In this document: piece after piece, positions 2,837 to 30,377 of the stretch | How positions within the stretch are numbered: position 1 is the first letter of the stretch | How the letters are laid out: every line of letters starts with the position of its first letter | Source of the DNA: Taklimakanibacter lacteus | Lineage (GTDB): Bacteria > Pseudomonadota > Alphaproteobacteria > Rhizobiales > Aestuariivirgaceae | DNA length: 64,000 nucleotides | Assembly (NCBI GenBank): GCA_003576695.1 | Contig: QOZQ01000001.1 | Coordinates: 310,001 to 374,000, forward strand | Direction: 5' to 3' | Translations under genes and position numbers: made by a program | The notes under the pieces: model-generated | Seen by the model: the letters and a program-made list of their open reading frames with translations, nothing else | Databases searched by the model: none | Told to the model about the DNA's origin: nothing

Positions 2837-3562
2837 CTACTGGCTCAGCGTTCCGGAGGGCGATGTCTTGTAGCGGCTGTGAAGGGCATAGCGGCTGGCG
2901 GGATAGGTGAGCGTCACGACAGTGACGACATGGCCCTTGCTCCAGCTGCGCCGGTGCAGAGCAAGGCAGGGCTCATGCTCGCCGATATCGAGCAAAGCCT
3001 GCTGATCGGGCGTCGGCATGACGGCCTCGACCGTGTGCTCGAGCTCATCGACCGGCACCGCGGCGACGAGATAGCCGGTCGGCGTCACGGCCGAAAAATC
3101 CTGCTCGTTGAAGTGCGGCGCGGCGAAAGGATTCACATAGCGCTCTTCCAGCTGCACCGGCACGCCGTTCTCGCTATGCACCATCACCAGATGGAAGAGC
3201 TTTGCCGGCAGCCGGAGCTCGAATTCCTCGGTGAGCGCGGCTGAGGCTTCGATGGTCTCGCGCGTTTCGATGTGAGCGGTATGCCGGTGTCCACGCGTTG
3301 CGATCTCATCGGCGATGTTGCGCAGTTCGACGAGGCTCGAACGGGCCGGCGGCTCCTTGACGAAAGTGCCGACCCCCGGCACGCGGGAAAGGAAGCCATC
3401 GGCGGTGAGCTCGCGCAGCGCGCGGTTGGCGGTCATGCGCGAGATGCTGAAGGTCTCGACGAGCTCGTTCTCGGACGGCACGCGCATGCCGGGCGTCCAG
3501 GCGCCGGAGCGGATATGGCCGAGAATGTGCTCCTTGACCTTGGCATAAAGGGGCGCCGTCAT
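2837..3562 (-). CDS. hutC: Histidine utilisation repressor, GntR/HutC family
   Basis: The 241-residue regulator has an N-terminal winged helix (about residues 5-70, with the GntR pattern [20 protein letters not shown]) and a C-terminal UTRA ligand-binding domain (about 95-235). HutC proteins repress hut operons and are released by urocanate. The start codon overlaps the last base of the hutI stop, so the two are translationally linked. A perfect 10-base palindrome matching the HutC half-site pattern lies in the hutI/hutF divergent promoter at 4779. Autoregulation within the hutI-hutC-hutU operon is therefore likely. Confidence 0.95.
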
Positions 3563-4758
3563 CAGAGTTTTCCCCTGATGATTTCGCCATTGCGGATCAC
3601 CGCGGCGAGGGGATTGAAGCCGAGCGGGTAGGCGAGATCACCCGGGCGCTCGGCATTCCACAGAACGAGATCGGCCTTCATGCCGGGTGCGATCCGGCCC
3701 CTGTCCTTGAAGCCCAGCGCGCGGGCGGCATTCACCGTCACGCCGCGCAAAGCTTCTTCCGGGGTGAGGCCGAAGAGGACGCAAGCCATGTTCATGGTCG
3801 CGAGCAAGGAATGGACGGGCGAGGAGCCGGGATTGAGATCGGTCGCAATGGCGATCGGCACCTTGCGGGCGCGCAGGGCGGCAACCGGCGGGTGCTGCTT
3901 CTCTTTCAGGTAGTAGAAGGCGCCGGGCAGGAGCACCGCGACGGTGCCCGATTGCGCGATGGCAACGACGCCATCCTCATCCAGATATTCGATGTGATCG
4001 ACGGAGAGCGCCCCATAGCGCGCGGCGAGAATGGCGCCGCCCAGATTGGACAATTGCTCGGCATGGAGCTTGATCGGAATGCCGAGCTTCTGTGCGGTGG
4101 CGAAGACTTTCTCCGTCTCGGCGACGGAGAAAGCGATGCCTTCGCAAAAGGCATCGACGGCGTCGGCGAGCCTGGCTTGGGCGACGGCCGGCAAGGCCTT
4201 GCCGCAGACGAGATCGACATAGGCCGCGTGATCGTCGCGATATTCGGCCGGGAAAGTATGGGCGCCCAGATAGCTCGTCACCACATCGACCGGATGCTGC
4301 TTGCCGAGCGCGCGGGCGACGCGCAGCATCTTGAGCTCTGTCTCGACATCGAGGCCATAGCCCGATTTGATCTCGATCGTGGTGACGCCTTCGGCCAGCA
4401 GGCTTTCGAGCCGGGTCGATGCCGATTTGAGCAGCTCTTCCTCGCTGGCCGCGCGGGTGGCGCGCACCGTCGAGAGGATGCCGCCACCGGCCTTGGCGAT
4501 CTCGGCATAGGAGACGCCATTGAGGCGCTGCTCGAATTCCCGGGCGCGATTGCCGCCATAGACAATGTGGGTGTGGCAGTCGATCAGGCCCGGGGTGAGG
4601 AGGCGCCCGCCGCAGTCGATCGACTGAGCCGCGGGCGCTTCCTTCCGCGCCCCGGTCCAGGCGATCCGTCCATCCTTCACCAGCACCGCGCCATCCTCGA
4701 TCAGGCCATAGGGCCCGCCTTCCGTCATCGTCGCCAGTCTGAGATTGGAAAAAAGCAT
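3562..4758 (-). CDS. hutI: Imidazolonepropionase
   Basis: This enzyme hydrolyses imidazolone-5-propionate to N-formimidoyl-L-glutamate. The open frame extends upstream to 4971, but that part overlaps hutF. The start at ATG 4758 gives 398 residues, the normal family size, beginning [10 protein letters not shown]. Amidohydrolase features are present: the metal-binding HTH (H62 and H64) in [25 protein letters not shown], and the late acidic motif [10 protein letters not shown]. It is the first gene of the leftward hut operon, transcribed from the 43-base region shared with hutF. The ribosome-binding site is weak. Confidence 0.96.
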
Positions 4759-4767
4759 CGAAGCCAC

Positions 4768-4795
4768 TTGTATAAGGTTGTATATACAGTATAGT
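4768..4795 (+). promoter_or_regulatory. Candidate promoter for hutF within the divergent hut control region
   Basis: TTGTAT at 4768-4773 and TATAGT at 4790-4795 are separated by 16 bases and would serve hutF. The HutC palindrome sits inside the spacer. The predicted transcription start would fall at or next to the ATG at 4802, so the hutF message may be leaderless or nearly so. The hexamers are degenerate and the call rests on position and spacing only. Confidence 0.5.
4779..4788. promoter_or_regulatory. HutC operator palindrome
   Basis: TGTATATACA is a perfect 10-base palindrome in the 43 bases between the hutI and hutF start codons. It fits the GT-N-TA-N-AC core recognised by GntR/HutC-family repressors. 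A related half (CTTGTATA) lies at 4767-4774. One site could repress both arms because it overlaps the candidate promoters in both directions. Confidence 0.75.
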
Positions 4796-4801
4796 GAAAA
4801 G

Positions 4802-6187
4802 ATGAAACAGCGCAAGTTGAAATTCGCCTCCGCTTTGCTTTCCTCGGGCTGGGCCGAGGACGTCACGCTCACCATCGATGCCCATGGCATGATCGAAAAG
4901 GTCGAGGCCGGCAGCTCCGACAAGACCGCCAAGACCCTGAAAGGCATCGCCATTCCGGCCATGCCGAACATCCATTCGCATGCCCATCAAAGGCTGATGG
5001 CGGGGCTCGCCGAAGTGGCAGGGCCAGGGGCCGACAGCTTCTGGACCTGGCGGGAAGTGATGTATAGCTTCGCGCTCAAGCTCGGACCGGAAGATCTCGA
5101 GGCGGTCGCGGCCCAGCTCTATGTCGAGATGCTGAAGAGCGGCTCGACCATTGTCGGCGAATTCCAGTATCTGCATCACCAGCCCGATGGCTCGCCCTAT
5201 GACGAGCCGGCCGAGCTGTCGCTGCGCTGCCTTGCGGCGGCCGAGGAGGCGGGCATCGCCATCACGATGCTGCCGACGCTCTATGCCTATGGCGGCTTCG
5301 GCGGCCAGAAGCCGACAGAGGGGCAGCGGCGCTTCATCAATGATGAGACTCGCTATCTCAAAATCCTTTCGAGCCTCGACAAAGCCAGCAAGGGCCATAA
5401 TTTGCGCCAGCTCGGCATCTCGCCGCATTCGCTGCGCGCCGTGACCAGGGAGCTTCTCAACGAAGTGATCGCCGGGCTCGACCGCCTGGGGCGCAAGACA
5501 GCGCCGATCCATATCCATGTGGCGGAGCAGACCAAGGAAGTCGATGACTGCATCGCCTGGTCGAAGGGGGCGCGGCCGGTCCAGTATCTCATCGACAATT
5601 TCGCTCTGTCGCAGCGCTGGTGCGCCATCCATGCCACCCATATGACGGCGGATGAGACGGCACGCATGGCGGCCTCCGGCATGATCGCGGGGCTGTGTCC
5701 CACGACCGAAGCCAATCTGGGCGACGGCACATTCCCCGCCGATCTCTTCCTCAAGAACAAGGGCGCCATCGCCATCGGCTCCGACAGCCATATCAGCGTC
5801 AGCCCGGCGGAAGACCTGCGCCAGCTCGAATATTCGCAGCGCCTCAGGGACCGCACCCGCAATGCGCTGGCTTCCGGCCCCGGCAAATCGACGGGGCGCA
5901 CCTTGCTCGATGCGGCACTTACGGGCGGGGCCCAATCCATGGCGCAGAAGGTCGGCGCCCTGGCCCCTGGCTACCGCGCCGATATCGCCGTGCTCGATGA
6001 TGGGCATCCGGCGCTGATCGGGCGCTCGGGGGATTCGGCGCTCGATAGCTGGATATTCTCCGGCGGCAATGCCTGCATGCGCGATGTCTTCGTCGCCGGC
6101 GAACATGTGGTGCAGGAGCGTCGACATATAAGAGAAGAAGCGATCGAGAAGAAGTTCCGCGCCGCGGTGAAGCGGCTGACAAAATAG
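4802..6187 (+). CDS. hutF: Formimidoylglutamate deiminase
   Basis: The 461-residue amidohydrolase-superfamily protein converts N-formimidoyl-L-glutamate to N-formyl-L-glutamate and ammonia, the step that defines the HutF/HutG branch of histidine breakdown. Start MKQRKLKF at 4802 was chosen over the longer frame at 4745, which overlaps hutI and has no family resemblance. Metal ligands are visible in NIHSHAHQR (H58, H60), [10 protein letters not shown] and AIGSDSHIS. It is divergent from hutI and 8 bases upstream of hutH. Its partner hutG lies 7.6 kb downstream at 13794. Confidence 0.95.
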
Positions 6188-6195: not shown

Positions 6196-7728
6196 ATGAT
6201 CCGTATCGGAGAAGGACCGCTCACCCTCGATCATGTGAGCCAGGCGCTGGCGGGGCCGGTCACGGTCGAGCTCACCGGGAAAGCGCGCGCCGCCATCACG
6301 CGGAGCGCCGAGACGGTGACGCGGCTCCTCGCCACGGGCGATGCGATCTATGGCGTCAATACCGGTTTCGGCAAGCTCGCCAAGCAGCGCATCGCGCCGG
6401 CCGATCTCTCGGCGCTGCAGATCAATATCGTGCGCTCGCATGCGGCGGGCGTCGGGGCGCCGCTCGAGCCCTCTATCGTGCGCGCCATCCTGCTGCTCAA
6501 GATCAATGCCCTGTCGCAAGGCGCCTCGGGCATCAGCCTCCAGGCGATGGATACGCTGGCGGGTCTTCTCAACCAGGACATATTGCCGGTCATTCCTGGG
6601 CAGGGCTCGGTCGGGGCCTCGGGCGACCTGGCGCCGCTCGCCCATCTCTCGCTCGTCCTCATCGGCGAGGGCGAGGCTTTCGTCAAAGGAAAGCGCGTCT
6701 CGGGCGCCGAGGCGCTCAAGGCGGCAGGCGTCTCACCGGTGCCGCTCGGCCCCAAGGAAGGGCTGGCGCTGCTCAATGGCACGCAGGTCTCGACCGCGCT
6801 GGCGCTCAACGGCCTCATCGCCGCCGAGCGCAATGCCGCGGCGGCGATCCTGGCCGGCGCCCTTTCGGTCGATGCGGTGATGGGCTCCGACACGCCCTTC
6901 GACCCGCGCATCCACAGCTTGCGGCCGCATCCCGGGCAGCAGCTCGCGGCCGGGCACTACCGCCGACTGATGCAGGGCAGCGCCATCCGCGCCTCGCATG
7001 TGACCGGCGATGAGAGGGTGCAGGATCCCTATTCCTTCCGCTGCCAGCCGCAAGTGATGGGCGCCTGCCTCGATCTCCTCGGCAATGCGGCGAAGACCCT
7101 CGTCATCGAAGCCAATGGCGTCTCCGACAATCCCCTCGTCTTCGTCGAGGACGGCGCGGTGCTGTCGGGCGGCAATTTCCATGCCGAGCCCGTCGCCTTC
7201 GCCGCCGACATCATCGCCATGGCGGTCGCCGAGATCGGCTCGATCAGCGAAAGGCGGATCGCCGCGCTCATCGATCCCACCATCTCGCTCTTGCCGCCCT
7301 TCCTCATCCGCAATCCGGGCCTCAATTCGGGCTTCATGATCCCGCAATGCACCGCAGCCGCGCTGATGAGCGAGAACAAGCAGCTTGCGCATCCCGCCAG
7401 CGTCGACAGCGTGCCGACATCCGCCAACCAGGAAGACCATGTCAGCATGGCGACCCATGGCGGAAGGCGTCTTGCGCTGATGAATGCCAATCTTGCCCGC
7501 ATCATCGCCATCGAATTGCTCGCCGCCGCCGAAGGCATCGATTTCCGCCGGCCGCTCACCTCATCGAAGCCGCTGGAGGAGACCTACGCGCTGATCCGCG
7601 GCAAGGCTGCCGCGCGCGATATCGACCGCGAATTCGCCACCGACATCGAGAGCGTCGCCGGCATGGTGGAAGCGGGGACGTTTGCGCGTTTCGCGCCCGG
7701 ACTATTGAAGGAACTTGGCGCGGCCTAG
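6196..7728 (+). CDS. hutH: Histidine ammonia-lyase, canonical
   Basis: The 510-residue enzyme deaminates L-histidine to urocanate. It has the intact MIO-forming triad in [12 protein letters not shown] (A141, S142, G143), the catalytic tyrosine loop [21 protein letters not shown], and the C-terminal [10 protein letters not shown]. It follows hutF by 8 bases with an AGGTG ribosome-binding site. Its 3' end overlaps the convergent gene at 7702 by 27 bases. It is the only one of three HutH-type proteins here with a normal cofactor motif and is probably the working histidase. Confidence 0.97.
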
Positions 7729-13793: not shown

Positions 13794-14582
13794 GTGAGCA
13801 AGCTCTTCGAACTGCAGCAAGCCGACGGTCCCCTCATCTTCTCCGTGCCGCATGCCGGCACCGATCTGCCGCCTGATATCGCGGCGCGGTTGACGGACCA
13901 TGCGCGGAAGCTTCCCGACACCGACTGGCATGTCGAGCAGCTCTATGATTTCGCGCCTGCGCTCAAGGCGACGGTGATCAGGGCCAATGTCAGCCGCTAT
14001 GTGATCGACCTCAACCGCCCGCCTGAAGATCAGAGCCTCTATCCGGGCCAGGCGACCACCGGCCTCTGTCCGCCGATCGAATTCGACGGCACGCCGATCT
14101 ATCGCGATGGCACGGAGGTTAAGGCCGATGAGGTGGCGCTGAGGCGCGAGACCTATTGGCGGCCTTATCATGAAGCTCTCGCCAGGGAGATCGCGCGGGC
14201 GAAGAAGCGCCATGGCTATGCGCTCCTGTTCGATTGCCACTCCATTGCGTCCCGCGTGCCAAGGCTGTTCGATGGCGTCTTGCCCGATCTCAATCTCGGC
14301 ACCGTCAAAGGCGAGAGCTGTGCGCCCGGGCTCGCGGCGCGGATCGCCAGGGTCATGCAGGAAAGCGGTCTCACGCAGATCGTGAATGGGCGGTTCATCG
14401 GCGGCCACATCACCCGCCACTTCGGCAAGCCCGCCGATCATGTGCATGCGGTGCAGATGGAGAAGGGCCAGGACTGCCATCTCATGGATGACGGGTCGAA
14501 CCGTCTCGATCCCGCCAAGGTGGCGAAGCTCAAGCCGGTGCTGCGCCGCATCGCCGAGACCATGCTCGCATGGCGGCCGTGA
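13794..14582 (+). CDS. hutG: N-formylglutamate deformylase
   Basis: The 262-residue protein is of the N-formylglutamate amidohydrolase family, the last Hut step, giving glutamate and formate. Diagnostic segments are LIFSVPHAGTDLPPDIA, DWHVEQLYDF, YVIDLNRPPED and LLFDCHSIASR. The start is GTG at 13794; no better start with a strong ribosome-binding site is seen. The next gene begins 13 bases before its stop, so the two are translationally coupled. It completes the pathway with hutF although separated from it by about 7.6 kb. Confidence 0.95.
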   Translation: MSKLFELQQADGPLIFSVPHAGTDLPPDIAARLTDHARKLPDTDWHVEQLYDFAPALKATVIRANVSRYVIDLNRPPEDQSLYPGQATTGLCPPIEFDGTPIYRDGTEVKADEVALRRETYWRPYHEALAREIARAKKRHGYALLFDCHSIASRVPRLFDGVLPDLNLGTVKGESCAPGLAARIARVMQESGLTQIVNGRFIGGHITRHFGKPADHVHAVQMEKGQDCHLMDDGSNRLDPAKVAKLKPVLRRIAETMLAWRP

Positions 14583-16069
14583 TCCTCGACGGACGCTCGC
14601 TCGATCCAAAGGGCGTCGAGCGCGTGGCGCGGGGCGAGACGGTCGTGATCGATGACATTGCGCGGGCCCTCATCGACAAGGGAAGGCGCATCGTCGACAG
14701 GCATCTGAGCGAAAGAATTCCGGTCTATGGGCTCAATACCGGTCTCGGCGCCCGGGCCGGGCAGATGCTGAAGCCCGACGCGCTGGCCGAGTTCAGTGTC
14801 CGCATGGTGCGTGGCCGCGCCCAGGGGCTCGGGCCGCCACTGCCGCCGCAGGAGGTGCGCGCCGTGATGGTGGCGCGGCTCAACAGCTTGCTCACAGGTG
14901 CGCCAGGTGCGAGCCCGGCGGTGGCCGACGCGCTTGTGCAGGCTCTCAACCGCAATGTCATTCCGGTCATGCCGCGCCATGCCTCGATCGGCGCCGGCGA
15001 CCTGGTCGCCATGGCGGCACTGCCGCATGCGCTGATCGGGGAAGGGGAGATGCTTGTCGAAGGCGAGCGCCAGCCGGCCGCACAAGTTCTGCAATCGGCC
15101 GGCCTTGCGCCGCTGGTGCTGGCGCCGAAGGATGGCCAGGTCCTGTGCAACTCGACCGCCTTCTCGGTCGGGCTTGCGGCTCTGGCGGCGGTGCAAGCGC
15201 GGCGGGCCGTCACGTCACTGCAGATTGCCGGTGCCCTGTCGTTCGTCGGGTTCCGCGGCAACCGCACGCCGTTCCAGAAGGCGGCGACGCGGATCAGGCC
15301 GCAGCCCGGCGAAATCGAGGCGGGCGATGAATTGCTGGCGCTCACCGATTGCGGCACGGCGGAGGTGAAGGCGCGGCGCTTCCAGGATCCCCTGTCCTTC
15401 CGCTGCATGCCGCAAGTCCATGGCGCGGCTTATGCGGAAGCGGCGCGGCTCGAAGCGGCGCTCGCGGTCGAGCTCAATTCGGTGGCCGACAATCCGGTCG
15501 TGCTTCTCGATGAGGAGAGGATCATCGGCACCAGCAATTTCCATATGCCGCATCTGACGCTGGCACTCGACGGCATGGCGCGGGCGCTGGCGCTCGTCGC
15601 GACCGACAGCGTGTCGCGCATCCAGCGCCTCATGAGCCCCTCATTCTCCGACCTGCCGCCGCTGCTCTCTTCCGAAAGCACCGACCGCGCCGGCTTCGGC
15701 CCGCTGATGAAGCCGGCGGAGGCGCTCCGGGCGGAGATCATCCATCTTGCCCATCCGGTGCCGATCCTCCCCAGCCACAATGCCGATGGGCAGGAAGATG
15801 CGGCGACTTTCTCCGCCCTGGCAGCGCAGAAGCTCGGGGAACTGCTCGACCGGATGGATCTCCTGATCGCGTTGGAACTGTTGGCCGGGGTGCAAGCGGT
15901 AGATCTGGCGGGGGTGAAGGAATTGCCGGTACGGCTGGCGCCGGTTCACAAGGCGGTCCGAGGGGTTTCGGGATTCATCGACGATGACCGGCCGTTGGGA
16001 AGAGAGATCGAGAGGATTGCCGCAGAGCTGGTGAAAAGTGGAAAGCTGCCGACCCTCGCCCCGCTTTAG
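14570..16069 (+). CDS. HutH-like ammonia-lyase paralogue with altered MIO motif
   Basis: The 499-residue full-length member of the HAL/PAL fold starts inside the hutG 3' end. Conserved elements are YGLNTGLGARAG, FQDPLSFRCMPQVHG, ELNSVADNPVV and a C-terminal NADGQEDAATFS. The cofactor motif reads ASIGAGDLVAM (A142, G143, D144), one residue shorter than GSVGASGDL; the serine position is missing. The protein therefore may not form MIO. The coupling to hutG suggests a role in histidine or related amino acid metabolism, possibly in binding or regulation. The final residues TLAPL and the stop codon are supplied by a dispersed repeat that begins at 16052. Confidence 0.9.
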   Translation: MAAVILDGRSLDPKGVERVARGETVVIDDIARALIDKGRRIVDRHLSERIPVYGLNTGLGARAGQMLKPDALAEFSVRMVRGRAQGLGPPLPPQEVRAVMVARLNSLLTGAPGASPAVADALVQALNRNVIPVMPRHASIGAGDLVAMAALPHALIGEGEMLVEGERQPAAQVLQSAGLAPLVLAPKDGQVLCNSTAFSVGLAALAAVQARRAVTSLQIAGALSFVGFRGNRTPFQKAATRIRPQPGEIEAGDELLALTDCGTAEVKARRFQDPLSFRCMPQVHGAAYAEAARLEAALAVELNSVADNPVVLLDEERIIGTSNFHMPHLTLALDGMARALALVATDSVSRIQRLMSPSFSDLPPLLSSESTDRAGFGPLMKPAEALRAEIIHLAHPVPILPSHNADGQEDAATFSALAAQKLGELLDRMDLLIALELLAGVQAVDLAGVKELPVRLAPVHKAVRGVSGFIDDDRPLGREIERIAAELVKSGKLPTLAPL

Positions 16070-16204: not shown

Positions 16205-17212
16205 TTATGCGTAAGTGAGTGTCTGGCCGATGCCGAGCGCCTTCGCCTTGTCGAGCATCGCGGCGCCGAGCGCGATGTCGGACAAAGACAGGCCGCGGTG
16301 CCAGAACAGGATCGTCTCCGCGTCACTCTCACGCCCGGGTTTCTTGCCGGCGACGATCTCGGCCAGCTCGCCATGCACGGTCGCCTCGCTGATGAGGCCG
16401 GCATCGATATGGGGTCTGAGCGCGCCGAACTTGCCGGCGCGGAACTGGCTGAAATCATCGATGACGACCTTGTCCATGATCGAGGTCATGGACAGCTCGA
16501 GCGCGCTTACCGTGCCATAGGGGATGACGCAGGCGCCCTTCCTGATCCAGGCGGTCTTGAAGATCTCGTCCCGCCGCTCGAGGCGCGAGGCCTCGACCAT
16601 GATGTCCGCACCTTCGAGGCAGCTTTGCCAGTCCTCGGTGACGATGATCTTCTTGCCGAGGTCGCGCTCGAGGGTCTGCGCGAAGGCTTCGCGGCTTTCC
16701 TTGCGGCGCGAATGGACGCGGATCTCGGCGAAATCGAACAGGTGGTCGAGCAGCCTGATATTCCAGTAGGAGGTGCCGCGGGCGCCGACATGGCCGAGGA
16801 TCTTCGAATCCTTGCGCGCCAGATGGCGGGCGCCGAGCGCGGTCAGGGCTCCGGTGCGCATCTCGGTGATCGCCGTCGCATCGAGAATGGCGACCGGCAT
16901 GCCGGTGCGCGGATCGAAGAGGTTGAGAAGCGCCATCTCGGAGGGCAGGCCCTTCCGCCAGTTGTCGACATAGTCGCCGACGATCTTGACGCCGGCGAGC
17001 GCAAGCGGCGCCACATAGCCGCGCAGCACATTGAAATGGCCGCGAAAGGCAGGGTCGGGGGTAAGATGCATGCGGGGCTCGATCACCGTCTGGCCGAGGC
17101 CTTGCGCGCGCAAGCCGCCCTCCACCGCGGCCAGGATCTCCTCATCCGTCATGGCGAGCCGGGCGATGTCAGGCCCGTTCAGCCAGGTGAAAAGGATGCC
17201 GGCCTCGCTCAC
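16205..17212 (-). CDS. Ornithine cyclodeaminase / mu-crystallin family protein
   Basis: The 335-residue protein has the family layout: an N-terminal dimer domain with the substrate segment RMHLTP and [15 protein letters not shown], a Rossmann domain beginning [13 protein letters not shown] near residue 140, and a late VIDDFSQF segment. Members include ornithine cyclodeaminase, ketimine reductases and delta1-pyrroline-2-carboxylate reductase, so the substrate is open. The start is GTG 17212, overlapping the cysNC stop by 4 bases (GTGA), which implies translational coupling to sulfate activation. The reason for that link is unclear. Confidence 0.85.
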
Positions 17213-19155
17213 TGGAAGCCCGGCGGATCGATGACCGGAATATCGGGCGTGAGCCGTCCGGCCTGGGTGAGATGGGCGATGATCTTCTGGGCCGCCTCCT
17301 CGGGCGAGAGCTTCGTCGTGTCGAGGCGCAGTTCCGGCGCCTCCGGCGCCTCATAGTCGGAATCGATGCCGGTGAAGTTCTTGATCTCGCCGCGCCGCGC
17401 CTTGGCATAGAGGCCCTTCACGTCGCGCGTCTCGGCCACGCTGAGCGGCGTATCGACGAAGATCTCGACGAATTCGCCCTTAGCGACCAGCTCGCGCGCC
17501 ATCAGGCGCTCGGAGCGGAAGGGTGAAATGAACGACACCATCACGATGAGACCGGAATCGACCATCAGCCGCGCCACCTCGGCGACGCGGCGGATGTTCT
17601 CGACCCGGTCGGCATCGGTGAAGCCCAGATCCTTGTTGAGCCCATGGCGGACATTGTCGCCGTCGAGAAGATAGGTCATGTGGCCGGCGGCATGGAGCCG
17701 CTTCTCGACCAGATTGGCGATGGTCGACTTGCCGGAACCCGACAGGCCGGTGAACCACAGGATGGTCGGCTTCTGTCCGGCCTTGGCCGCGCGGGAAGCC
17801 TTGTTCACATCGAGCGCCTGCCAATGGATGTTCGAGGCGCGGCGCAGCGCGAAATTGATGAGCCCCATGCCGACCGTGTTGTTGGTGAAACGGTCGATGA
17901 TGATGAAGCTGCCGAGACGTCGGTTCTCGCCATAGGGGGTGAAGGGAATGGCGCGGTCGAGATCTATGTTGACGACGCCGATCTCGTTGAGGCCGAGGGT
18001 CTTGGCGGCGACGTGCTCGAGCGTGTTGACATTGACCTTGTATTTCGGCGCCTCGAAGGCGCCGGGAATGGTGAGCGGCCCCGCCTTGATCAGATAGGGG
18101 CGGCCGGGAAGCATGGCCTCCTCGTCCATCCACAATATGCGGGTCTCGAACTTGTCGGCGACGGCGAGCGGCGAATTGGCGGCGCAGATCACATCGCCGC
18201 GGCTGATGTCGATCTCGTCCTCGAGCGTGATCGTCACGGCCTGGCCGGAGGCGGCTTCGGCGAGATCGCCGTCATAGGTCACGATGCGCTCGACGCGCGA
18301 GGTCTTGCCCGACGGCACGGCGCGGATCTCGTCGCCCGGCTTCACCGTGCCTTCGACGATGCTGCCGGAGAAGCCGCGGAAAGCCTGGTCCGGGCGGTTC
18401 ACCCATTGCACCGGCAGGCGGAAGTCGCCCTTGTCCGTCGCCTCGCCGATAGCCACGCTCTCGAGATGCGCCATCAAGGTCGGGCCGTGATACCAGGGCA
18501 TGGAAACGGACGGCTCGATGACATTGTCGCCCTTCAGCGCCGAGAGCGGGATGCAGGTGAAATCCTCGATGCCGAGTTGTTTCGCGAAACTGCGATAGTC
18601 TTCCGCGATCGCCTCGAAGACATCGCGGCGATAATCCATCAGATCCATCTTGTTGACGGCGACGACGATGTTCCGGATGCCGAGCAAGGTGGCGATGAAG
18701 GAATGGCGGCGCGTCTGGGTGAGGACGCCCTTCCTCGCATCGATCAGGATGATGGCGAGATCGGCGGTCGAGGCGCCGGTCGCCATGTTGCGGGTATATT
18801 GCTCATGGCCCGGCGTGTCGGCGACGATGAATTTGCGCTTGTCGGTGGTGAAGGCGCGATAGGCGACATCGATGGTGATGCCCTGCTCGCGCTCGGCCGA
18901 GAGGCCGTCGACGAGAAGGGCGAAATCGAGCGCGCCGCCCTGGGTGCCGACCCGCTTCGAATCCGCTTCGAGCGCCGAGAGCTGGTCCTCGAAGAGCATC
19001 TTGGCTTCATAAAGAAGCCTTCCGATCAGGGTCGACTTGCCGTCATCGACGCTGCCGCAGGTGATGAAGCGCAGCAGGTCCTTTTCCTCCTGCGAGCGCA
19101 AATAGGCCTCGACATCGCCGCCCTGGAACTCGATGAAACGCGTCGACGTCATCAA
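17209..19155 (-). CDS. cysNC: Bifunctional sulfate adenylyltransferase large subunit / APS kinase
   Basis: The 648-residue fusion has an N-terminal CysN GTPase (P-loop [35 protein letters not shown]), beta-barrel domains, and a C-terminal CysC APS kinase (about residues 460-640, P-loop [11 protein letters not shown]). It makes APS with CysD and phosphorylates it to PAPS. The fusion is like rhizobial NodQ/CysN. It is downstream of cysD on the same strand, separated by a 160-base gap filled with dispersed repeats. It may start at ATG 19155 or at the adjacent 19152. Confidence 0.96.
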
Positions 19156-21862: not shown

Positions 21863-22762
21863 ATGTGCGGCATTGTCGGCCTCTATCTCAAGAACCCCAA
21901 ATTGCAGCCGAAGCTCGGCCAGCTGTTCAAGCCCATGCTCATCGAGATGACGAGCCGCGGGCCCGATTCAGCCGGTGTGGCCATCTATCGCAACCCGGCC
22001 AAGAAGGGCTTCACCAAATTCTCGCTCGCCCATGACGATGCGAAATTCGCCTGGAAGAAGCTGGCGGCGGCGCTCAAGGCGCATACCAAGAAGCAGGTCA
22101 GCGCCGAGCAGATCGGCAATCATGCCATCCTCACCACCAATGCCAGGGAAGAGGCGGTGACGGCGTGGCTCAAGGCGCATTATCCGGATGTGCGCGTCGT
22201 CGGCTCCGGCCAGGCGATCGAGATCTTCAAGGAAACGGGCTTGCCCGAGAAGGTCTATGAGAAGTTCGATCTGGCCAAGGCCAAGGGCAGCCACATCATC
22301 GGCCATACCCGCATGGCGACCGAGAGCGCCGTGACCACCGCCGGCTCGCATCCTTTCGCGACCGGCGCCGATCTCTGCCTCGTCCACAATGGCTCGCTTT
22401 CCAACCACAACCGCCTGCGCGAGAACCTCAAGCGCGAAGGCCTCGAATTCCAGACCGAGAACGACACCGAGGTCGCCGCCGCCTATATGACCTGGAAACT
22501 GCGCCAGGGCGCCTCGCTCAAGGAGACATTGGAAGACGGCATCAAGGACATGGACGGCTTCTATACGTTCTGCGTCGGCACGCATGACGGCTTTGCCGTG
22601 GTGCGCGATCCCATCGCCTGCAAGCATGCGATCCTCGCCGAGACCGACGACTGGGTGGCGATGGCGACCGAGTTCCGCGCCATCGCGCACCTGCCCGGTG
22701 CCGACAAGGCGAAGATCTGGGAGCCGGCGCCGCAGACGATCTATAATTGGGGTGGACATTAG
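21863..22762 (+). CDS. glxB: Class II glutamine amidotransferase, GlxB / MgsA type
   Basis: The protein has 299 residues from ATG 21863, which puts cysteine second (MCGIVGLYL); after methionine removal this is the N-terminal nucleophile cysteine of the class II (Ntn) glutaminase fold. A TTG two codons earlier is in frame but would bury it. SRGPDSAGVAIYRN, HTRMATESAVT and HNGSLSNHNRLRENL are conserved. In GlxBCD, the three domains of glutamate synthase are separate proteins and this is the glutaminase part. In methylotrophs the equivalent MgsA belongs to N-methylglutamate synthase. Confidence 0.93.
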   Translation: MCGIVGLYLKNPKLQPKLGQLFKPMLIEMTSRGPDSAGVAIYRNPAKKGFTKFSLAHDDAKFAWKKLAAALKAHTKKQVSAEQIGNHAILTTNAREEAVTAWLKAHYPDVRVVGSGQAIEIFKETGLPEKVYEKFDLAKAKGSHIIGHTRMATESAVTTAGSHPFATGADLCLVHNGSLSNHNRLRENLKREGLEFQTENDTEVAAAYMTWKLRQGASLKETLEDGIKDMDGFYTFCVGTHDGFAVVRDPIACKHAILAETDDWVAMATEFRAIAHLPGADKAKIWEPAPQTIYNWGGH

Positions 22763-22776
22763 TGCTCACTTATTTT

Positions 22777-22878
22777 CGTCATCCCGGCGAAAGCCGGGAT
22801 CCCCTAAATTCATTCGGGACGATGAGCGCTGCCCGCAGGGCATTTATTCAATGGGTCCCGGCTTTCGCCGGGATGACG
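22777..22878. repeat. GTCATCCCGGCGAAAGCCGG palindromic repeat, copy 2
   Basis: The left arm CGTCATCCCGGCGAAAGCCG begins at 22777; the inverted arm CGGCTTTCGCCGGGATGACG ends at 22878, with about 50 bases between the arms. It fills most of the 139-base glxB-glxC gap and could form a hairpin in the message, changing the ratio of the two subunits. Confidence 0.93.
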
Positions 22879-22901
22879 GGCAGAGGGAGAGTACAAGAAT
22901 C

Positions 22902-23585
22902 ATGATCGAGATCGATCTCGAAAAAGACGGCGTGCGCGGCGTCAATTCGCGCCTGCATGCGCTGCCCAAGGATACCAACGAGCGGCACTGGCTGATCCGC
23001 AATCCGATGGGCCAGCATGCCATTGCCTGTGGCCTCGATGCGCCGATCACCGTCGAGGTCGCCGGCCATGCCGGCTTCTATTGCGGCGGCATGAACAAAG
23101 AGGCCGAGATCCTCATCCATGGCCATGCGGGACCGGGCGTCGCCGAGAACATGATGTCGGGGATAGTGCGCGTCGACGGCAATGCCAGCCAGTCGGCCGG
23201 CGCCACCGGCAATGGCGGCCTCCTCGTCATCAAGGGCGACGCGGCGTCGCGCTGCGGCATCTCGATGAAGGGCATCAATATCGTGGTCGGCGGCTCGGTC
23301 GGCCATATGTCGGCCTTCATGGCGCAAAGTGGCCATCTCGTCGTCTGCGGCGACGCCGGCGAGGCGCTGGGCGACTCCATCTATGAGGCCAGGCTCTATG
23401 TGCGCGGCAAGGCCGACAGCCTCGGCGCCGACTGCATCGAGAAGGAGATGACCGATCATCATCTCGCCAAGCTGGCGCGCCTTCTCGACGAGGCCGAGAT
23501 CAAGGCCAATCCGAAGGACTTCCGCCGCTTCGGCTCGGCACGCAAGCTCTATAATTTCAACATCGATCACGCCGACGCTTACTGA
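22902..23585 (+). CDS. glxC: GlxC / MgsB protein, glutamate synthase C-terminal-like beta-helix domain
   Basis: The start at ATG 22902 (MIEIDLEKDGVRGVN) behind an AGAGGGAGAG ribosome-binding site gives 227 residues; the longer open frame reads through the repeat and glxB. The glycine-rich repeats (AGFYCGGMNKEAEILIHG, VGGSVGHMSAFMAQSGHL) are typical of the GXGXG right-handed beta-helix domain of glutamate synthase. That domain positions the active sites rather than doing chemistry. It is 7 bases upstream of glxD. The equivalent in the N-methylglutamate pathway is MgsB. Confidence 0.92.
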   Translation: MIEIDLEKDGVRGVNSRLHALPKDTNERHWLIRNPMGQHAIACGLDAPITVEVAGHAGFYCGGMNKEAEILIHGHAGPGVAENMMSGIVRVDGNASQSAGATGNGGLLVIKGDAASRCGISMKGINIVVGGSVGHMSAFMAQSGHLVVCGDAGEALGDSIYEARLYVRGKADSLGADCIEKEMTDHHLAKLARLLDEAEIKANPKDFRRFGSARKLYNFNIDHADAY

Positions 23586-23592
23586 GGCACAC

Positions 23593-24921
23593 ATGGATCC
23601 CAACACGCCGCGCACAACGCCCCGCAAATCGGCAACCTTCGACGACTATACCTTGTCGGAAATCCGCCGCGCCGCCACCACCGGCATCTATGATATCCGC
23701 GGCGCCGGCGCCAAGCGGAAGATGCCGCATTTCGACGACCTCCTGTTCCTCGGCGCCTCGATGTCGCGCTATCCGCTGGAAGGCTATCGCGAGAAATGCG
23801 GCACCAATGTCGTGCTCGGCACGCGCTTCGCCAAGAAGCCGATCGAGCTGAAAATCCCGATCACCATCGCCGGCATGAGCTTCGGCTCGCTCTCGGCGCA
23901 GGCCAAGGAAGCGCTCGGCAACGGCGCCACCCTCGCCGGCACCTCGACGACGACCGGCGATGGCGGCATGACGCCGGAGGAGCGCGGGCATTCGAAGACA
24001 CTGGTCTACCAGTATCTGCCCTCGCGCTACGGCATGAACCCGGACGACCTGCGCAAGGCAGATGCGATCGAGGTCGTGGTCGGGCAGGGCGCCAAGCCCG
24101 GCGGCGGCGGCATGCTCTTGGGCCAGAAGATCTCCGACCGCGTGGCGCAGATGCGCAACCTGCCCAAGGGCATCGACCAGCGCTCGGCCTGCCGGCATCC
24201 CGACTGGACCGGGCCCGACGATCTCGAGATCAAGCTGCATGAATTGCGCGAGATCACCAATTGGGAGAAGCCGATCTATATCAAGGTCGGTGGCGCCAGG
24301 CCCTATTACGATACGGCGCTTGCGGTGAAATCGGGCGCCGATGTCGTGGTGGTCGACGGCATGCAGGGCGGCACCGCCGCCACGCAGGAAGTCTTCATCG
24401 AGCATGTCGGCCAGCCGACGCTCGCCTGCATCCGCCCGGCGGTCAAGGCGCTGCAGGATCTCGGCATGCACCGCAAGGTGCAGCTCATCGTCTCGGGCGG
24501 CATCCGCAACGGCGCCGATGTGGCGAAGGCGCTGGCGCTCGGCGCCGACGCGGTGTCGATCGGCACCGCCGCACTGGTGGCGCTCGGCGACAATGACCCC
24601 CATCTCGAAGAGGAATACCAGAAGCTCGGCACCACGGCCGGCGCCTATGACGACTGGCATGAAGGCCGCGATCCCGCCGGCATCACCACGCAGGATCCCG
24701 AGCTTGCCAAGCGCCTCGATCCTAAGCGGGCCGGACGCAGGCTCGCCAACTATCTGAAGGTCATGACGCTCGAGGCGCAGACCATCGCGCGCGCCTGCGG
24801 CAAGAACCATGTGCATAATCTGGAGCCGGAAGACCTGGTGGCGCTCACCGTCGAGGCGGCCGCCATGGCGCAGGTGCCGCTGGCGGGCACGAACTGGATC
24901 CCGGGCAAGAGCGGCTATTGA
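23593..24921 (+). CDS. glxD: GlxD / MgsC protein, glutamate synthase FMN-binding domain
   Basis: The 442-residue protein is of the FMN-dependent glutamate synthase core. Visible segments are MSFGSLSAQAKEALGNGA, TTTGDGGMTPEERG, GQGAKPGGGGMLLGQKIS, VDGMQGGTAATQEVFIEH and SGGIRNGADVAKALALGADA. A compact cysteine-bearing region is absent from its C-terminus. It would transfer ammonia from GlxB to 2-oxoglutarate, or act on a gamma-glutamylmethylamide-type donor, as in N-methylglutamate synthase. It follows glxC directly. A palindromic dispersed repeat and osmC separate it from glnT. Confidence 0.93.
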   Translation: MDPNTPRTTPRKSATFDDYTLSEIRRAATTGIYDIRGAGAKRKMPHFDDLLFLGASMSRYPLEGYREKCGTNVVLGTRFAKKPIELKIPITIAGMSFGSLSAQAKEALGNGATLAGTSTTTGDGGMTPEERGHSKTLVYQYLPSRYGMNPDDLRKADAIEVVVGQGAKPGGGGMLLGQKISDRVAQMRNLPKGIDQRSACRHPDWTGPDDLEIKLHELREITNWEKPIYIKVGGARPYYDTALAVKSGADVVVVDGMQGGTAATQEVFIEHVGQPTLACIRPAVKALQDLGMHRKVQLIVSGGIRNGADVAKALALGADAVSIGTAALVALGDNDPHLEEEYQKLGTTAGAYDDWHEGRDPAGITTQDPELAKRLDPKRAGRRLANYLKVMTLEAQTIARACGKNHVHNLEPEDLVALTVEAAAMAQVPLAGTNWIPGKSGY

Positions 24922-24952
24922 TGGGAAGACGTGCAGATATCCTCGCCATCAG

Positions 24953-25101
24953 ACCCTCGCCCCGCTTTAGCGGGGAGAGGGGAGGGACCCGACGCGAAGC
25001 GGCGGGAGGGGTGAGGGGCATGCATGAAGTGAACTGGAGCCCCTCACCTTCCCATTGCTCCGCAATGGGCCCCTTCCTCTCCCCGCTGCGCGGGGCGAGG
25101 T
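24953..25101. repeat. Palindromic dispersed element, copy 2
   Basis: This is the same family and orientation as 16052-16203: ACCCTCGCCCCGCTTTAGCG, the inner CGACGCGAAGCG, then inverted arms ending GGGGCGAGGT. The middle differs from copy 1. It fills much of the 275-base gap between glxD and the OsmC gene, where no coding capacity is evident. Confidence 0.92.
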
Positions 25102-25196
25102 GTAAGAAGAGCGGATAGGAGACCAGGCCCAATGGGAATTTCCGCTCTTCCGATATTCGGCGATACTGCCGCCCTTGCGATGGCGACGAGGTAGTC

Positions 25197-25664
25197 ATGG
25201 CGCATCTGCACACCGCCCGGATCCTGTGGGAAAGCAACAGCGACAACTTCACCAAGAACACCTATTCGCGCGCCCATCACTGGTCGTTCGACGGCGGCCA
25301 GACGGTGCTCGCCTCCGCGTCACCGCATGTGGTGCGGGTACCCTTCTCGGACCCCGCCGGCATCGATCCGGAAGAGGCGCTGGTGGCGGCGATCTCGAGC
25401 TGCCACATGCTGACCTTCCTCTATCACGCGGCCAAGGCGGGCTTTACGGTCGAGCGCTATGAGGACAATGCCGAAGGCCAAATGGGCAAGATCGCGGAAG
25501 GACGCCTTGCCGTCACACGCTGCACCTTGAAGCCTCTCGTCCAGTTCGCGGGCAAGGCGCCGACGCGGCCTGAGCTCGACCATCTTCACCATCTGGCGCA
25601 TGAGGAATGCTTCATCGCCAATTCGGTCAAAACAGAAATCATCTGCGAACCGCAGGGTGTCTAA
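25197..25664 (+). CDS. OsmC-family protein, putative peroxidase
   Basis: The 155-residue protein has a GAGGT ribosome-binding site before ATG 25197. It has the OsmC/Ohr layout with two conserved cysteines, in AISSCHMLTFLYH and AHEECFIANSV. The helix preceding the first cysteine (DPEEALVAA) is typical. Family members reduce organic hydroperoxides through these cysteines. The protein ends 27 bases before glnT and seems co-transcribed with it, which would link thiol-based detoxification to amine assimilation. The substrate is unknown. Confidence 0.9.
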   Translation: MAHLHTARILWESNSDNFTKNTYSRAHHWSFDGGQTVLASASPHVVRVPFSDPAGIDPEEALVAAISSCHMLTFLYHAAKAGFTVERYEDNAEGQMGKIAEGRLAVTRCTLKPLVQFAGKAPTRPELDHLHHLAHEECFIANSVKTEIICEPQGV

Positions 25665-25691
25665 ATCTAGGGTTGGAAACAGGAGACCTTC

Positions 25692-26999
25692 ATGGCCGGC
25701 GATCTGGCTAAATATGCAAAAGACAAGAAAGTAAAATTCTTCCTCTTCAATTTCACCGACCTGTTCGGCACCCAGCGCGCCAAGCTGGTGCCGGCGGAAG
25801 CGGTGGGCAGCATGCAGAAATCAGGCGCCGGTTTCGCCGGCTTCGCCACCTGGCTCGACATGACGCCGGCGCATCCCGATATGTTCGTGATGCCGGATGC
25901 GGATTCGGTCATCCAGCTGCCGTGGAAGCCGGAAGTGGCGTGGGTGGCGGGCGACCCGTGGATGGAAGGCAAGCCGGTCGGCCAGGCGCCGCGCCTCGTG
26001 CTCAAGAACCTCCTCGCGAAATGCGCCAAGCGCAACATGAAGCTGATGGCGGGCGTCGAGCCCGAATTCCATCTCATCAATGCCGATGGCTCATCCGTCT
26101 CCGACCCGCGCGATACGCAGGAAAAGCCCTGCTACGACCAGTCGGCGGTGATGCGCCGCTTCGACGTCATCTCCGAGATCTGCACCACCATGATCAATCT
26201 CGGCTGGGGTCCCTATCAGAACGACCACGAGGACGCGAACGGCCAGTTCGAGATCAACTGGAACTTCAACGATGCGCTGACCACGGCCGACCAGCTGTGC
26301 TTCTTCAAGTTCATGGTCAAGTCGATCGCCGAGAAGCATGGGCTTCGGGCCACCTTCATGCCGAAGCCCTTCGTCAACCTCACCGGCAATGGCTGCCATG
26401 TGCATATCTCGGTGTGGGACAATGCGAGGAAGGCCAATCTCTTCCATGACAGGAAGGGCGAGCTCGGCTTGTCGCCCTTGTGCTACAACTTCCTCGGCGG
26501 CCTCATGCATCACGCCGAGAGCTTCGCCGCCATCACCAATCCGACGGTGAACAGCTACAAGCGCATCAATGCGCCGCGCACCATGTCGGGCGCCACCTGG
26601 TCGCCCAATACGGTGACCTTCGGCGGCAACAACCGCACCCATATGGTGCGCGTGCCGGATGAGGGGCGGGTCGAATTGCGGCTGCCCGACAATTCCGCCA
26701 ATCCCTATCTGATGATGGCGGTGATCCTGGCGGCGGGCCTGCATGGCATCGATGAGAAGATGGATCCGGGCAAGCGCCTCGACATCGACATGTATGCCGA
26801 AGGGCACAAGGTGAAGGGCGCCAAGAAGCTGCCGCTCAACCTCCTCGATGCGATCCGCAATTTCGAGAAGGACAAGTATATTCTCGAGGCACTCGGGCCC
26901 GAGCTGTCATCGGCCTATATCAAGCTCAAGTCGAATGAGTGGAACCAGTATTGCCGCCATCTCACCCAGTGGGAACGCGACACGACGCTGGATTGCTAG
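25692..26999 (+). CDS. glnT: Glutamine synthetase-like protein, GlnT / gamma-glutamylmethylamide synthetase type
   Basis: The 435-residue protein is of the glutamine synthetase superfamily, matching the length of rhizobial GlnT and of GmaS. The beta-grasp begins FFLFNFTDLFGTQRAKLV. Catalytic barrel motifs are MAGVEPEFHLI (metal-binding glutamates), NGCHVHISVWD (ammonia/metal region), and RVELRLPDNSANPYLMMA. It attaches ammonia or, in GmaS, methylamine to glutamate using ATP. The neighbouring glxBCD and the downstream soxBDAG favour the GmaS reading, but residue-level proof is not available here. It is preceded closely by the OsmC gene. Confidence 0.88.
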   Translation: MAGDLAKYAKDKKVKFFLFNFTDLFGTQRAKLVPAEAVGSMQKSGAGFAGFATWLDMTPAHPDMFVMPDADSVIQLPWKPEVAWVAGDPWMEGKPVGQAPRLVLKNLLAKCAKRNMKLMAGVEPEFHLINADGSSVSDPRDTQEKPCYDQSAVMRRFDVISEICTTMINLGWGPYQNDHEDANGQFEINWNFNDALTTADQLCFFKFMVKSIAEKHGLRATFMPKPFVNLTGNGCHVHISVWDNARKANLFHDRKGELGLSPLCYNFLGGLMHHAESFAAITNPTVNSYKRINAPRTMSGATWSPNTVTFGGNNRTHMVRVPDEGRVELRLPDNSANPYLMMAVILAAGLHGIDEKMDPGKRLDIDMYAEGHKVKGAKKLPLNLLDAIRNFEKDKYILEALGPELSSAYIKLKSNEWNQYCRHLTQWERDTTLDC

Positions 27000-27066
27000 C
27001 CCGCCTGCCTGACATGAAGCCTCGCCACTTCCGTCATCGTGGCCAGTGCGGGTGGTTGTCAGGATG

Positions 27067-27942
27067 TCAATTCCACCAGCCCTTGTGCTCTTTCTTGGGT
27101 TGCCGCGCAATGCCGTCGCCGGGCTTTGGCGGCTCGATCTCGAGCAAGTAGCGCTGCACCGGAGTCATGCGGCTGTAGAGCTCGGGCGTCAGGTAATCAA
27201 GCTGCAGAAGCTGCTGCGGCAGGTCGCGCCGCGTATAGGTGAGATGCAACATGCGGCGCGGCTTGTCGGTCTTCTTGAGCGTGCCTGCGTGCCACATCGA
27301 TGAATTGCAGATGATGACCGAACCGGCCGGTGCTTCGACCAGCACCTCACCCGGATAGGGAGCGGATAGGTCCTTCGGGATGCGTACCGCTTCCTCGGGG
27401 GTCAATGGTGCAGGCTCCCAGTCGCCGATGTTCACATAAGGCACATTAATCGGCGCCCAGTAGTGCGAGCCCGGAACGATGCGGGTCGGTCCATTGTCCA
27501 ATGTCATGTTGTCGAACATAACCATGGAGTTCACGACCCACCAATCATCCACGAACTTCTTGGGGACGTCGACATGCAGGTCCTGGTGGCCGTAGCCTTT
27601 CACGGGATCACGAAGATTGGCGCCATGCACTTTGATTTCGCCCAGCGCATGCGCCGAAACGGCGAGAACTTCGGGGATCCACAGGCATTTATCGAAGGCG
27701 TCGGTCTTGTTGAAGATGTTGGAGATGCGGCGGGCGCCCGGCTCCACATGCACTTCGTGACCGCCGTTCTCCCTCTCCTTGGCGTGGATGAGCTCGAAGG
27801 CGCCGCGCATCCGCTCGCAGTCCTCCGACGTCAGGACATTCTCGACGATGATGTAGCCTTGCTCATCAAATTGCCGCTTCTGGGCATCGGTAATGGTCGA
27901 GGGCGTGACGCCGAGCTCGCGCAGGGCTTGCTTCGTATGCAT
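27067..27942 (-). CDS. Phytanoyl-CoA dioxygenase (PhyH) family protein
   Basis: The start at ATG 27942 (MHTKQALRELGV) is set by AAGGAGGACC just upstream, giving 291 residues; the longer frame to 28068 would overlap the next gene. It is a non-haem iron, 2-oxoglutarate-dependent oxygenase of the PhyH fold: the iron-binding GHQDLHVDVPK, substrate segment GPTRIVPGSHYW, and distal histidine with arginine in SSMWHAGTLKKTDKPRRM. The substrate is unknown. It is convergent with glnT and has a 16-base inverted repeat 34 bases upstream of its start that may be its operator. Confidence 0.88.
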   Translation of the reverse strand: MHTKQALRELGVTPSTITDAQKRQFDEQGYIIVENVLTSEDCERMRGAFELIHAKERENGGHEVHVEPGARRISNIFNKTDAFDKCLWIPEVLAVSAHALGEIKVHGANLRDPVKGYGHQDLHVDVPKKFVDDWWVVNSMVMFDNMTLDNGPTRIVPGSHYWAPINVPYVNIGDWEPAPLTPEEAVRIPKDLSAPYPGEVLVEAPAGSVIICNSSMWHAGTLKKTDKPRRMLHLTYTRRDLPQQLLQLDYLTPELYSRMTPVQRYLLEIEPPKPGDGIARQPKKEHKGWWN

Positions 27943-27975
27943 CTGGTCCTCCTTCCAGTTTTTCTCCCCATTTAG

Positions 27976-27991
27976 ACGTTCAGGTGAACGT
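27976..27991. promoter_or_regulatory. Candidate operator upstream of the PhyH gene
   Basis: ACGTTCA at 27976 and TGAACGT at 27985 form a perfect inverted repeat with a GG centre. It lies between the end of the flavoprotein gene (28065) and the PhyH start, so it is positioned to control the PhyH gene separately from its upstream neighbour. The binding protein is unknown. Confidence 0.55.
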
Positions 27992-28064
27992 TTCATCAAG
28001 AGGTATTTCTGCTTGTGCCGAGCCAGGTATTGAGCCGTTTCGTGGTTGGTCAGCGGGTGGTGGA

Positions 28065-28853: not shown

Positions 28854-28944
28854 GGGCTGGGCCTCCGGGATGGGACGGCCCCTAAGCTAGGCATGACCTG
28901 AGCAATCCACTATATGTGCATAATGAATAATATCATGCCGAAAA

Positions 28945-29871: not shown

Positions 29872-29883
29872 TGCCAGCCTTTC

Positions 29884-30231: not shown

Positions 30232-30377
30232 GATGTCCTTTCCTTCCAATGCCGCGCAAGCTCCTGGGCTTTCTCGATGTCTCGTTTCTGTGTTCGTTTA
30301 TCGCCACCAATCAGCAATACGACAATTTCCGAGCCGCGTCTGAGATAGTAGATTCGATATCCTGGACCGTAGTTCGG
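30228..30377 (-). pseudogene. Toxin remnant, C-terminal half of RelE/HigB-like toxin
   Basis: The minus-strand reading from 30377 to the TGA at 30228 gives 49 residues beginning PNYGPGYRIYYLRRGSE and continuing IVVLLIGGDKRTQKRDI. This is the second half of a HigB/RelE-type toxin. Two codons upstream is an in-frame TGA, there is no usable start, and the first half is not found in any frame. Just upstream is an intact-looking promoter, so about 55 codons and the start appear deleted. The stop overlaps the antitoxin start, as in intact toxin-antitoxin operons. Confidence 0.88.

Follow-up and report, generated by a model that had tools for sequence, protein, structure and literature searches.

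The window analysed here, a 64,000-nucleotide stretch of Taklimakanibacter lacteus DNA, carries histidine utilization genes in the order hutU, hutC, hutI (minus strand), hutF, hutH (plus strand), about 6 kb of other genes, hutG and a lyase gene of the HutH family, which is the subject of this report and is called the right paralogue below. A second gene of this type, the left paralogue, adjoins hutU at the window edge. The features are as follows, with bit scores and cut-offs where a profile model was used:

1..1143, minus strand: left paralogue, MIO-less, 3' end cut by the window edge (whole gene, L005:13633-15144)
1152..2828, minus strand: hutU, urocanate hydratase (TIGR01228, 980.2 bits, cut-off 375)
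2837..3562, minus strand: hutC, histidine utilization repressor (TIGR02018, 294 bits, cut-off 220)
3562..4971, minus strand: ORF that we take to be hutI, imidazolonepropionase (longest ORF start used)
4745..6187, plus strand: ORF that we take to be hutF, formiminoglutamate deiminase (longest ORF start used)
6196..7728, plus strand: canonical hutH (TIGR01225, 668.9 bits, cut-off 539.15)
13794..14582, plus strand: hutG, N-formylglutamate deformylase (TIGR02017, 343.7 bits, cut-off 278.75)
14570..16069, plus strand: right paralogue, MIO-less, Arg83-type lyase, PF00221, 499 aa, ATG start
14726..14728, plus strand: its Tyr53 codon, invariant in 27 lyases
14816..14818, plus strand: its Arg83 codon (His in HutH and ergothionase), at least 90% conserved in the 27-member profile set
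14981..15013, plus strand: its one-residue-short loop ASIGAGDLVAM (residues 138-148), which replaces the MIO-forming Ala-Ser-Gly motif
15401..15403, plus strand: its Arg278 codon, invariant in 27 lyases
15710..15712, plus strand: its Lys381 codon, invariant in 27 lyases, common to ergothionase and the C5 paralogue, absent from HutH and the left paralogue
15794..15796, plus strand: its Glu409 codon, invariant in 27 lyases
16205..17212, minus strand: OCD/mu-crystallin-family oxidoreductase (PF02423), convergent with the lyase
17209..19155, minus strand: ORF named cysN-type by sequence, presumably correctly, overlapping the OCD start by 4 bp
21863..36171, plus strand, with a GbdR-like regulator on the minus strand: methylamine-type cluster, from profile matches

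Between hutH and hutG, a low-complexity ORF with many GGTS-type repeats lies at 9061-9858 on the minus strand. At 16205-20386, also on the minus strand, cysD-type, cysN-type and OCD-family genes stand in one row, and G057, g5 and g3 show the cysN-OCD order as well.

Where the canonical HutH of the window reads [12 protein letters not shown], the right paralogue is one residue shorter in the alignment, as a preliminary description of this DNA had stated; that description placed the loop at 14981..15004, which is the right site, although the span covers ASIGAGDL only. The MIO-forming Ala-Ser-Gly triad is absent (GAG-DL), and a protein in which this motif is one residue short should not form MIO. 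All rows of the alignment except the canonical HutHs share the deletion. The Rhizobium members read GAA-DL and others GAG-DL, GAS-DL or similar, which indicates that across the aligned proteins loop length is the constant trait and the left-over residue varies (Gly, Ser or Ala). The description had also named serine as the missing member, and this did not hold: the left-over residue differs even between the window protein and L047, a congener's orthologue of the right paralogue that reads GAS-DL, so that a missing serine carries no meaning and was discarded as a mark that tells the right copy from the left. Other departures from the motif were met among HutH-like proteins. In L201, L202 and L203 the MIO triad is lost in another way, the sequence being GSVGYIVHGAH in place of the canonical [14 protein letters not shown]; of these, L201 and L203 are placed outside the MIO-less clade by the 58-row tree described below, which did not include L202. 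L034 is of the canonical HutH type, except that Cys replaces the MIO serine (GSVGACGDL), and one genome, G276, holds seven PF00221 matches.

The right paralogue scores well under the HutH models (348 bits with TIGR01225, cut-off 539.15; 350.9 bits with NF006871, cut-off 524), and none of the three proteins of its genome that were tested reaches the HutH cut-offs. The gene of the right paralogue is under purifying selection, with dN/dS of 0.16 against G057, 0.14 against G056 (partial) and 0.27 against G045; between its own genome (G000) and G057 the corresponding values are 0.16 for hutH, 0.14 for the left paralogue and 0.10 for the OCD gene. Since every non-canonical row is short by exactly one residue and dN/dS is 0.16, the short loop reflects neither chance nor decay, and a pseudogene was ruled out by a dN/dS as low as that of hutH.

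The ATG of the lyase gene sits within the 3' end of hutG, whose stop ends at 14582, giving a 13-bp overlap that is identical in G057; in G056 the 3' part of hutG overlaps the lyase likewise, with the hutG match there split over two frames. This coupling had been read as a sign of a Hut-related role. The overlap itself is real in G000, G057 and G056, but it was not seen outside the genus and was therefore rejected as a conserved link. Two other genomes of the genus, G054 and G055, gave no close orthologue of the right paralogue among the 69 genomes compared.

HutH relatives that lack MIO are not wholly new, since ergothionase (PDB 6s7j) is already one, and to our knowledge it represents the one characterized MIO-less activity of the HutH family. 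We take Tyr53 to occupy the base position of the HutH family, and Arg278 and Glu409 presumably correspond by numbering to HutH Arg283 and Glu414. Y53, K381 and E409 align with residues of 6s7j, and Tyr, Lys and Glu are, we assume, the essential residues of ergothionase. The T. denticola enzyme (PDB 6s7j/6s7q) belongs to PF00221, has the loop SSIGE-GDI, one residue short as in the right paralogue, carries the same Tyr/Arg/Lys/Glu set and shares with it a Leu at the position of HutH Tyr280. PMC13405746 describes ergothionase as lacking MIO and releasing trimethylamine. Y53, R278, K381, E409 and D410 are invariant in 27 diverse members, down to 33% identity, in a set that leaves out the left paralogue and L117; these two do not have the shared Lys, which is thus not universal in the MIO-less group. 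With HutH the right paralogue has in common PF00221, Tyr53, Arg278, Glu409 and its location in a hut cluster, whereas it differs in the missing Ala-Ser-Gly, the replaced Tyr280, the presence of Lys381 and Arg83 in place of His83. It departs from ergothionase in the last of these too, ergothionase having His at 83, and in its setting, because its genome has no thiourocanate hydratase over the cut-off and its neighbours are Hut and OCD genes. The ergothionase 6s7j is also distant, its highest identity to any row of a 90-row tree being 37%, to L116. Searched against the PDB, a profile of the 27 members placed 6s7j first (458.8 bits; best HutH, 432.8), while the right protein alone matched HutH structures slightly better than 6s7j (211.8 and 204.0 bits); the left and C5 proteins alone had 6s7j as their best match.

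The whole genome encodes four PF00221 proteins, namely the canonical HutH and three that are MIO-less. A single canonical enzyme does lie between the two outer paralogues of the window, as had been noted, and the third MIO-less copy is found on contig C5 (L006:8161-9651, loop GSLGA-ADLAPL). The left paralogue (loop SGSVGA-SDLVPN) and the right one had been thought to form a related MIO-lacking subfamily; both do belong to the large MIO-less group defined below, but at about 30% identity they are no close pair. The left copy forms a long separate branch and has no counterpart of the Lys common to the right copy, C5 and ergothionase, and the tree ruled out the two as sister paralogues. At L005:5343-15144 the left lyase gene stands beside an OpuAC/ABC set, a choline-kinase-like gene and a DAO/GCV_T (dimethylglycine-dehydrogenase-like) gene, and this neighbourhood, which adjoins hutU, is a candidate betaine catabolic set. 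The C5 lyase has His83, is 62% identical to the L066 lyase of the same clade, and reaches its highest identity in the 90-row set, 65%, with an Arg83 row from Rhizobium. It is a likely ergothionase, although its genome has no thiourocanate hydratase over the cut-off; carbamoylase and hydantoinase genes were not recognised beside it when the neighbourhood was read by eye.

In a 58-row maximum-likelihood tree (LG+G4), which held no PAL or TAL rows, kept the loop columns in and has 6s7j as a long branch, a branch with support 100/99 separates all 43 MIO-less rows, 6s7j included, from the others. Within these, a 39-row subclade (98/96) holds the right paralogue and C5, with 6s7j, L116 and the left paralogue outside it. 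The right paralogue carries both marks of this subclade, Arg83 and an OCD-family neighbour; five of the 39 rows carry His83. An earlier quick tree of 90 rows, from which three near-duplicates had been dropped, likewise separated the MIO-less rows from four canonical HutHs, with weaker inner support, and placed the left paralogue, 6s7j and L116 away from the remaining MIO-less rows.

Residue 83 divides the family. It is Arg in 81 of 93 rows and His in the other 12 (the four canonical HutHs, 6s7j, the left paralogue and its G057 orthologue, L116, C5, L066, L096 and L103). A His83 clade (C5, L018, L066, L096 and L103; 100/99) is nested within the Arg83 group, and by the branching order of the tree Arg83 became His in the C5/L066/L096/L103 clade. 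Residues 82-83 of the right paralogue are Gly-Arg, which we take, from an alignment that held no PAL or TAL row, to be the selectivity pair of the aromatic lyases; in HAL this pair is Ser-His. Such a residue pair is described as governing substrate choice in aromatic lyases in PMC9002059 and PMC3992019. Among the nested His83 loci, that of Rhizobium setariae (L066) includes a thiourocanate hydratase gene (1024 bits, cut-off 930) together with M20-type (carbamoylase-like), amidohydrolase and S-Me-THD genes; carbamoylase and hydantoinase genes are present in L066 and L096 and not in L103. This thiourocanate-type ergothioneine operon thus resembles the right-paralogue locus in that its lyase, too, is MIO-less and comes from a clade within the Arg83 group, and differs from it by His83, by its thiourocanate hydratase, carbamoylase and hydantoinase genes and by the lack of an OCD gene. 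As an ergothioneine context is visible in two of the three named loci of the nested clade, residue 83 seems to follow the substrate, and the nested clade is the best evidence to suggest that the substrate of the right protein is not ergothioneine.

Neighbouring genes were compared over loci picked by two peptide patterns, with 80 of 136 relatives kept in a sample that leans to those patterns. Scored by tblastn with score thresholds, the 80 loci comprise 76 with Arg83 and four with His83 MIO-less lyases; they are not independent counts, because many are close relatives (Rhizobium) and some stretches are short. An OCD-family gene lies near 54 of the 76 Arg83 lyases and none of the four His83 lyases; in the other 22 Arg83 stretches no OCD match exceeded the threshold, although L052 and L113 among them show a partial match. 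For the remaining gene types, the Arg83 and His83 counts are, respectively, 24/76 and 1/4 for OpuAC/Pro-type (betaine-type) transport, 7/76 and 1/4 for Hut genes (U, F, I or G; the His83 case is the L066 thiourocanate hydratase), 7/76 and 0/4 for MTTB, 6/76 and 0/4 for FlK, 0/76 and 2/4 for carbamoylase with hydantoinase, and 2/76 and 0/4 for DAO/GCV_T oxidoreductases. A typical Rhizobium locus comprises CoA-transferase, SDR, MaoC, GntR, lyase, OpuAC, OCD, phosphonate-binding protein and ABC genes, and in both Streptomyces loci the OpuAC, permease and ATPase genes point away from the OCD and lyase genes. Near the lyase of the window no gene for a betaine transporter could be recognised; an MFS gene precedes hutG there. 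Conserved genomic linkage, on which the preliminary description had wished to see its proposal checked, therefore reaches well beyond this genome, but it runs through OCD, betaine-type transport and, in several lineages, Hut genes.

Hut genes were seen near lyases of this kind in the window clade with g5 and in four further branches, L062/L110, L101, L105 and L174. In L062 the lyase and OCD genes have hutF, hutI, hutG and hutU as neighbours, in a stretch that lacks a canonical hutH, and L110 has hutF, hutI and hutG near the lyase; in the L061, L062 and L110 genomes the canonical hutH lies on another contig, with no Hut gene within up to 1.5 kb on each side (L214 ends at a contig edge). Because only four of 92 lyases, clustered from 87 loci, are closest to the HutH of the window, most relatives do not stand beside a canonical hutH in the stretch examined. 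Each of the six g3 genomes (Anderseniella-like, G038-G043) encodes the lyase as a fusion with an N-terminal FlK-type thioesterase domain, and the two g5 genomes (G045 and G046) have a separate FlK-type gene just upstream of the lyase; Pfam confirmed FlK for one g3 and one g5 protein. The FlK-lyase loci are L040, L041, L042, L043, L045 and L046, and in the genus of the window hutG occupies the FlK position.

The closest solved relatives of the OCD-family protein are alanine dehydrogenase and pyrroline-2-carboxylate reductase. Its group was found in 26 of 387 class-wide genomes (E at most 1e-90), and a lyase match lies within about 1.5 kb at five of 27 class-wide OCD loci, the window locus and one weak match included; among 20 wider OCD stretches, five contain a match of the lyase type, which is diverged in two cases (L168 and L170). 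An obligate OCD-lyase pair was thus ruled out, most class-wide OCD loci having no neighbouring lyase. The L168 and L170 products are PF00221-like proteins whose loops resemble neither canonical HutH nor the short-loop group. EutB/EutC, BhcB/BhcD and SbnA/SbnB are pairs of an elimination-type and an OCD-family enzyme, and the lyase loci recall them in placing such genes side by side. The partners in those pairs have folds other than that of the HutH-type lyase, however, and unlike them the OCD gene of the window is convergent with its neighbour and often occurs elsewhere without a lyase.

The genome encodes a TMAO demethylase over the cut-off (1253 bits against 1100). This enzyme occurs in 36 of the 387 genomes (E at most 1e-200; 32 over the cut-off), with 13 of the 26 OCD genomes having it against 23 of the 361 others (Fisher p = 2e-8, kinship uncorrected), or 12 of 25 when the own genome is left out (p = 1e-7). 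Among OCD genomes, however, it is found in 5 of 13 with a MIO-less lyase against 8 of 13 without, where lyase-positive genomes were judged by PF00221 score band and loop motifs were read for part of them only. TMAO demethylase goes with OCD and not with the lyase and therefore lends no support to a trimethylamine product, for which its co-occurrence was discarded as evidence. A PF10017 search of the own genome found no EgtD-type match, which ruled out ergothioneine biosynthesis as the context. Nor does this genome contain a thiourocanate hydratase over the cut-off, its sole match being the HutU locus at 669.5 bits, under 930; the hutU product itself, scored with NF058530, gives 669.8 bits under the same cut-off and is not a thiourocanate hydratase. 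The cluster at 21863-36171 comprises glutamine-amidotransferase-like, glutamate-synthase-like, type III glutamine synthetase (GmaS-like), SoxB-family and SoxA-family genes. TIGR03105 (666.6 bits, cut-off 469.6), TIGR01373 (726, 529) and TIGR01372 (1393, 1164) are over their cut-offs and the remaining genes are under theirs, GbdR scoring 274.9 under 480. The cluster looks like the N-methylglutamate route for methylamine.

Our preferred reading, at a probability of roughly 0.5, sees in the right paralogue a working HutH-family lyase that is independent of MIO, is no histidine ammonia-lyase and releases a tertiary amine from a betaine-type amino acid. The elements of this proposal are not equally secure. 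The lost MIO motif, the conserved residues, the purifying selection, the clade and the linkage are results of the analysis; an active enzyme without MIO is very likely, and the elimination of an amine, which we infer, is probable, whereas a tertiary amine and a betaine-like substrate have about even chances. A mechanism is proposed where Tyr53 would take the proton from the substrate beta carbon, as in ergothionase, while Lys381, Arg278 and Glu409 would bind and polarise the substrate. The alpha-carbon amine, already a good leaving group and most likely a tertiary amine such as trimethylamine, would then depart without the MIO electrophile, so that a betaine-type amino acid would be turned into an acrylate. 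Arg83 would point to a compound that is not ergothioneine and whose side chain is perhaps negatively charged or becomes so. Within this genus and in a small number of other lineages, a tie to the Hut pathway would exist through the product or through its regulation, and the simplest candidate would be a histidine betaine such as hercynine, yielding urocanate and trimethylamine; hercynine itself is a guess, and a doubtful one. In favour of this scheme are the likeness to ergothionase in loop and residues, the 27-member profile, the tree, the invariant residues, the nested His83 clade, the betaine-type transport, MTTB and Hut genes near part of the Arg83 loci, and the TMAO demethylase of the genome with the methylamine-type cluster of the window. 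Against it are the slightly better score of the right protein alone with HutH structures, Arg83 itself, the Lys missing from the left paralogue and L117, the window locus with no recognised betaine transporter, the TMAO demethylase counts, the OCD genes without a lyase and the Arg83 loci without an OCD match, as well as the Rhizobium operons with CoA-transferase, MaoC and SDR genes, which fit an acrylate other than urocanate. The OCD enzyme is assigned no role in this scheme.

An alternative that gives the OCD enzyme a task builds on argininosuccinate and EDDS lyases, in which a side-chain carboxylate is held and the beta proton is acidic without MIO. Arg83 could hold such a carboxylate, acidifying the beta proton, and the amine released, an amino acid or an amine, could be oxidised or cyclised by the OCD enzyme. 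The prevalence of Arg83 (81 of 93 rows), the presence of OCD genes near Arg83 and not His83 lyases (54/76 and 0/4), and the two dehydrogenase and reductase structures closest to the OCD protein all point this way, yet we consider it unlikely because betaine-type transport and MTTB genes lie near some loci and Hut genes near others, and because OCD genes often occur without the lyase. That the right paralogue is an ergothionase acting on ergothioneine itself would account for a short loop and catalytic-type residues like those of 6s7j. This appears distinctly improbable with Arg83 in place of the His that the clade of the carbamoylase/hydantoinase loci has, with no thiourocanate hydratase over the cut-off in the genome, and with the C5 protein as the better ergothionase candidate.

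The lost MIO motif, together with a HutH copy in the same cluster, could also reflect a catalytically dead protein that regulates HutH, for example via mixed tetramers. Against this, Tyr, Arg, Lys and Glu are invariant in the 27 members, dN/dS matches that of hutH, and the relatives are mostly placed away from canonical hutH (4/92, and another contig in the L061, L062 and L110 genomes), so a dead regulator is very improbable; no evidence was found for a regulatory role, which had been raised beside an enzymatic one when the locus was first described. Least credible of all, and close to negligible, is that the gene is nothing but a decaying hutH copy about to be lost: close orthologues are indeed confined to 11 of the 69 family genomes, the own genome included, but the gene is under purifying selection and full length in G057, and its relatives occur in Actinomycetota and Pseudomonadota.

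If the preferred reading, a MIO-independent betaine lyase, is extended to the family, the large Arg83 branch, often near OCD genes, might tentatively be seen as removing tertiary amines from betaines other than ergothioneine, with a side entrance to the Hut pathway in this genus and three lyases for three betaines in this genome. We did not find an Arg83 or OCD-linked HutH-like lyase described in the openly licensed (CC0, CC BY, CC BY-SA) PMC literature, and the branch is apparently widespread and undescribed. Members of the group lack the MIO triad, and those that were scored, three proteins of this genome, do not reach the HutH cut-offs, so any that are named histidine ammonia-lyase are likely misnamed. 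If these proteins are betaine lyases, soil and marine bacteria would have in them a neglected source of trimethylamine and acrylates. As residue 83 changes from Arg to His between the Arg83 relatives and the ergothionase-type members, the way in which MIO-independent catalysis selects its substrate can be tested directly.
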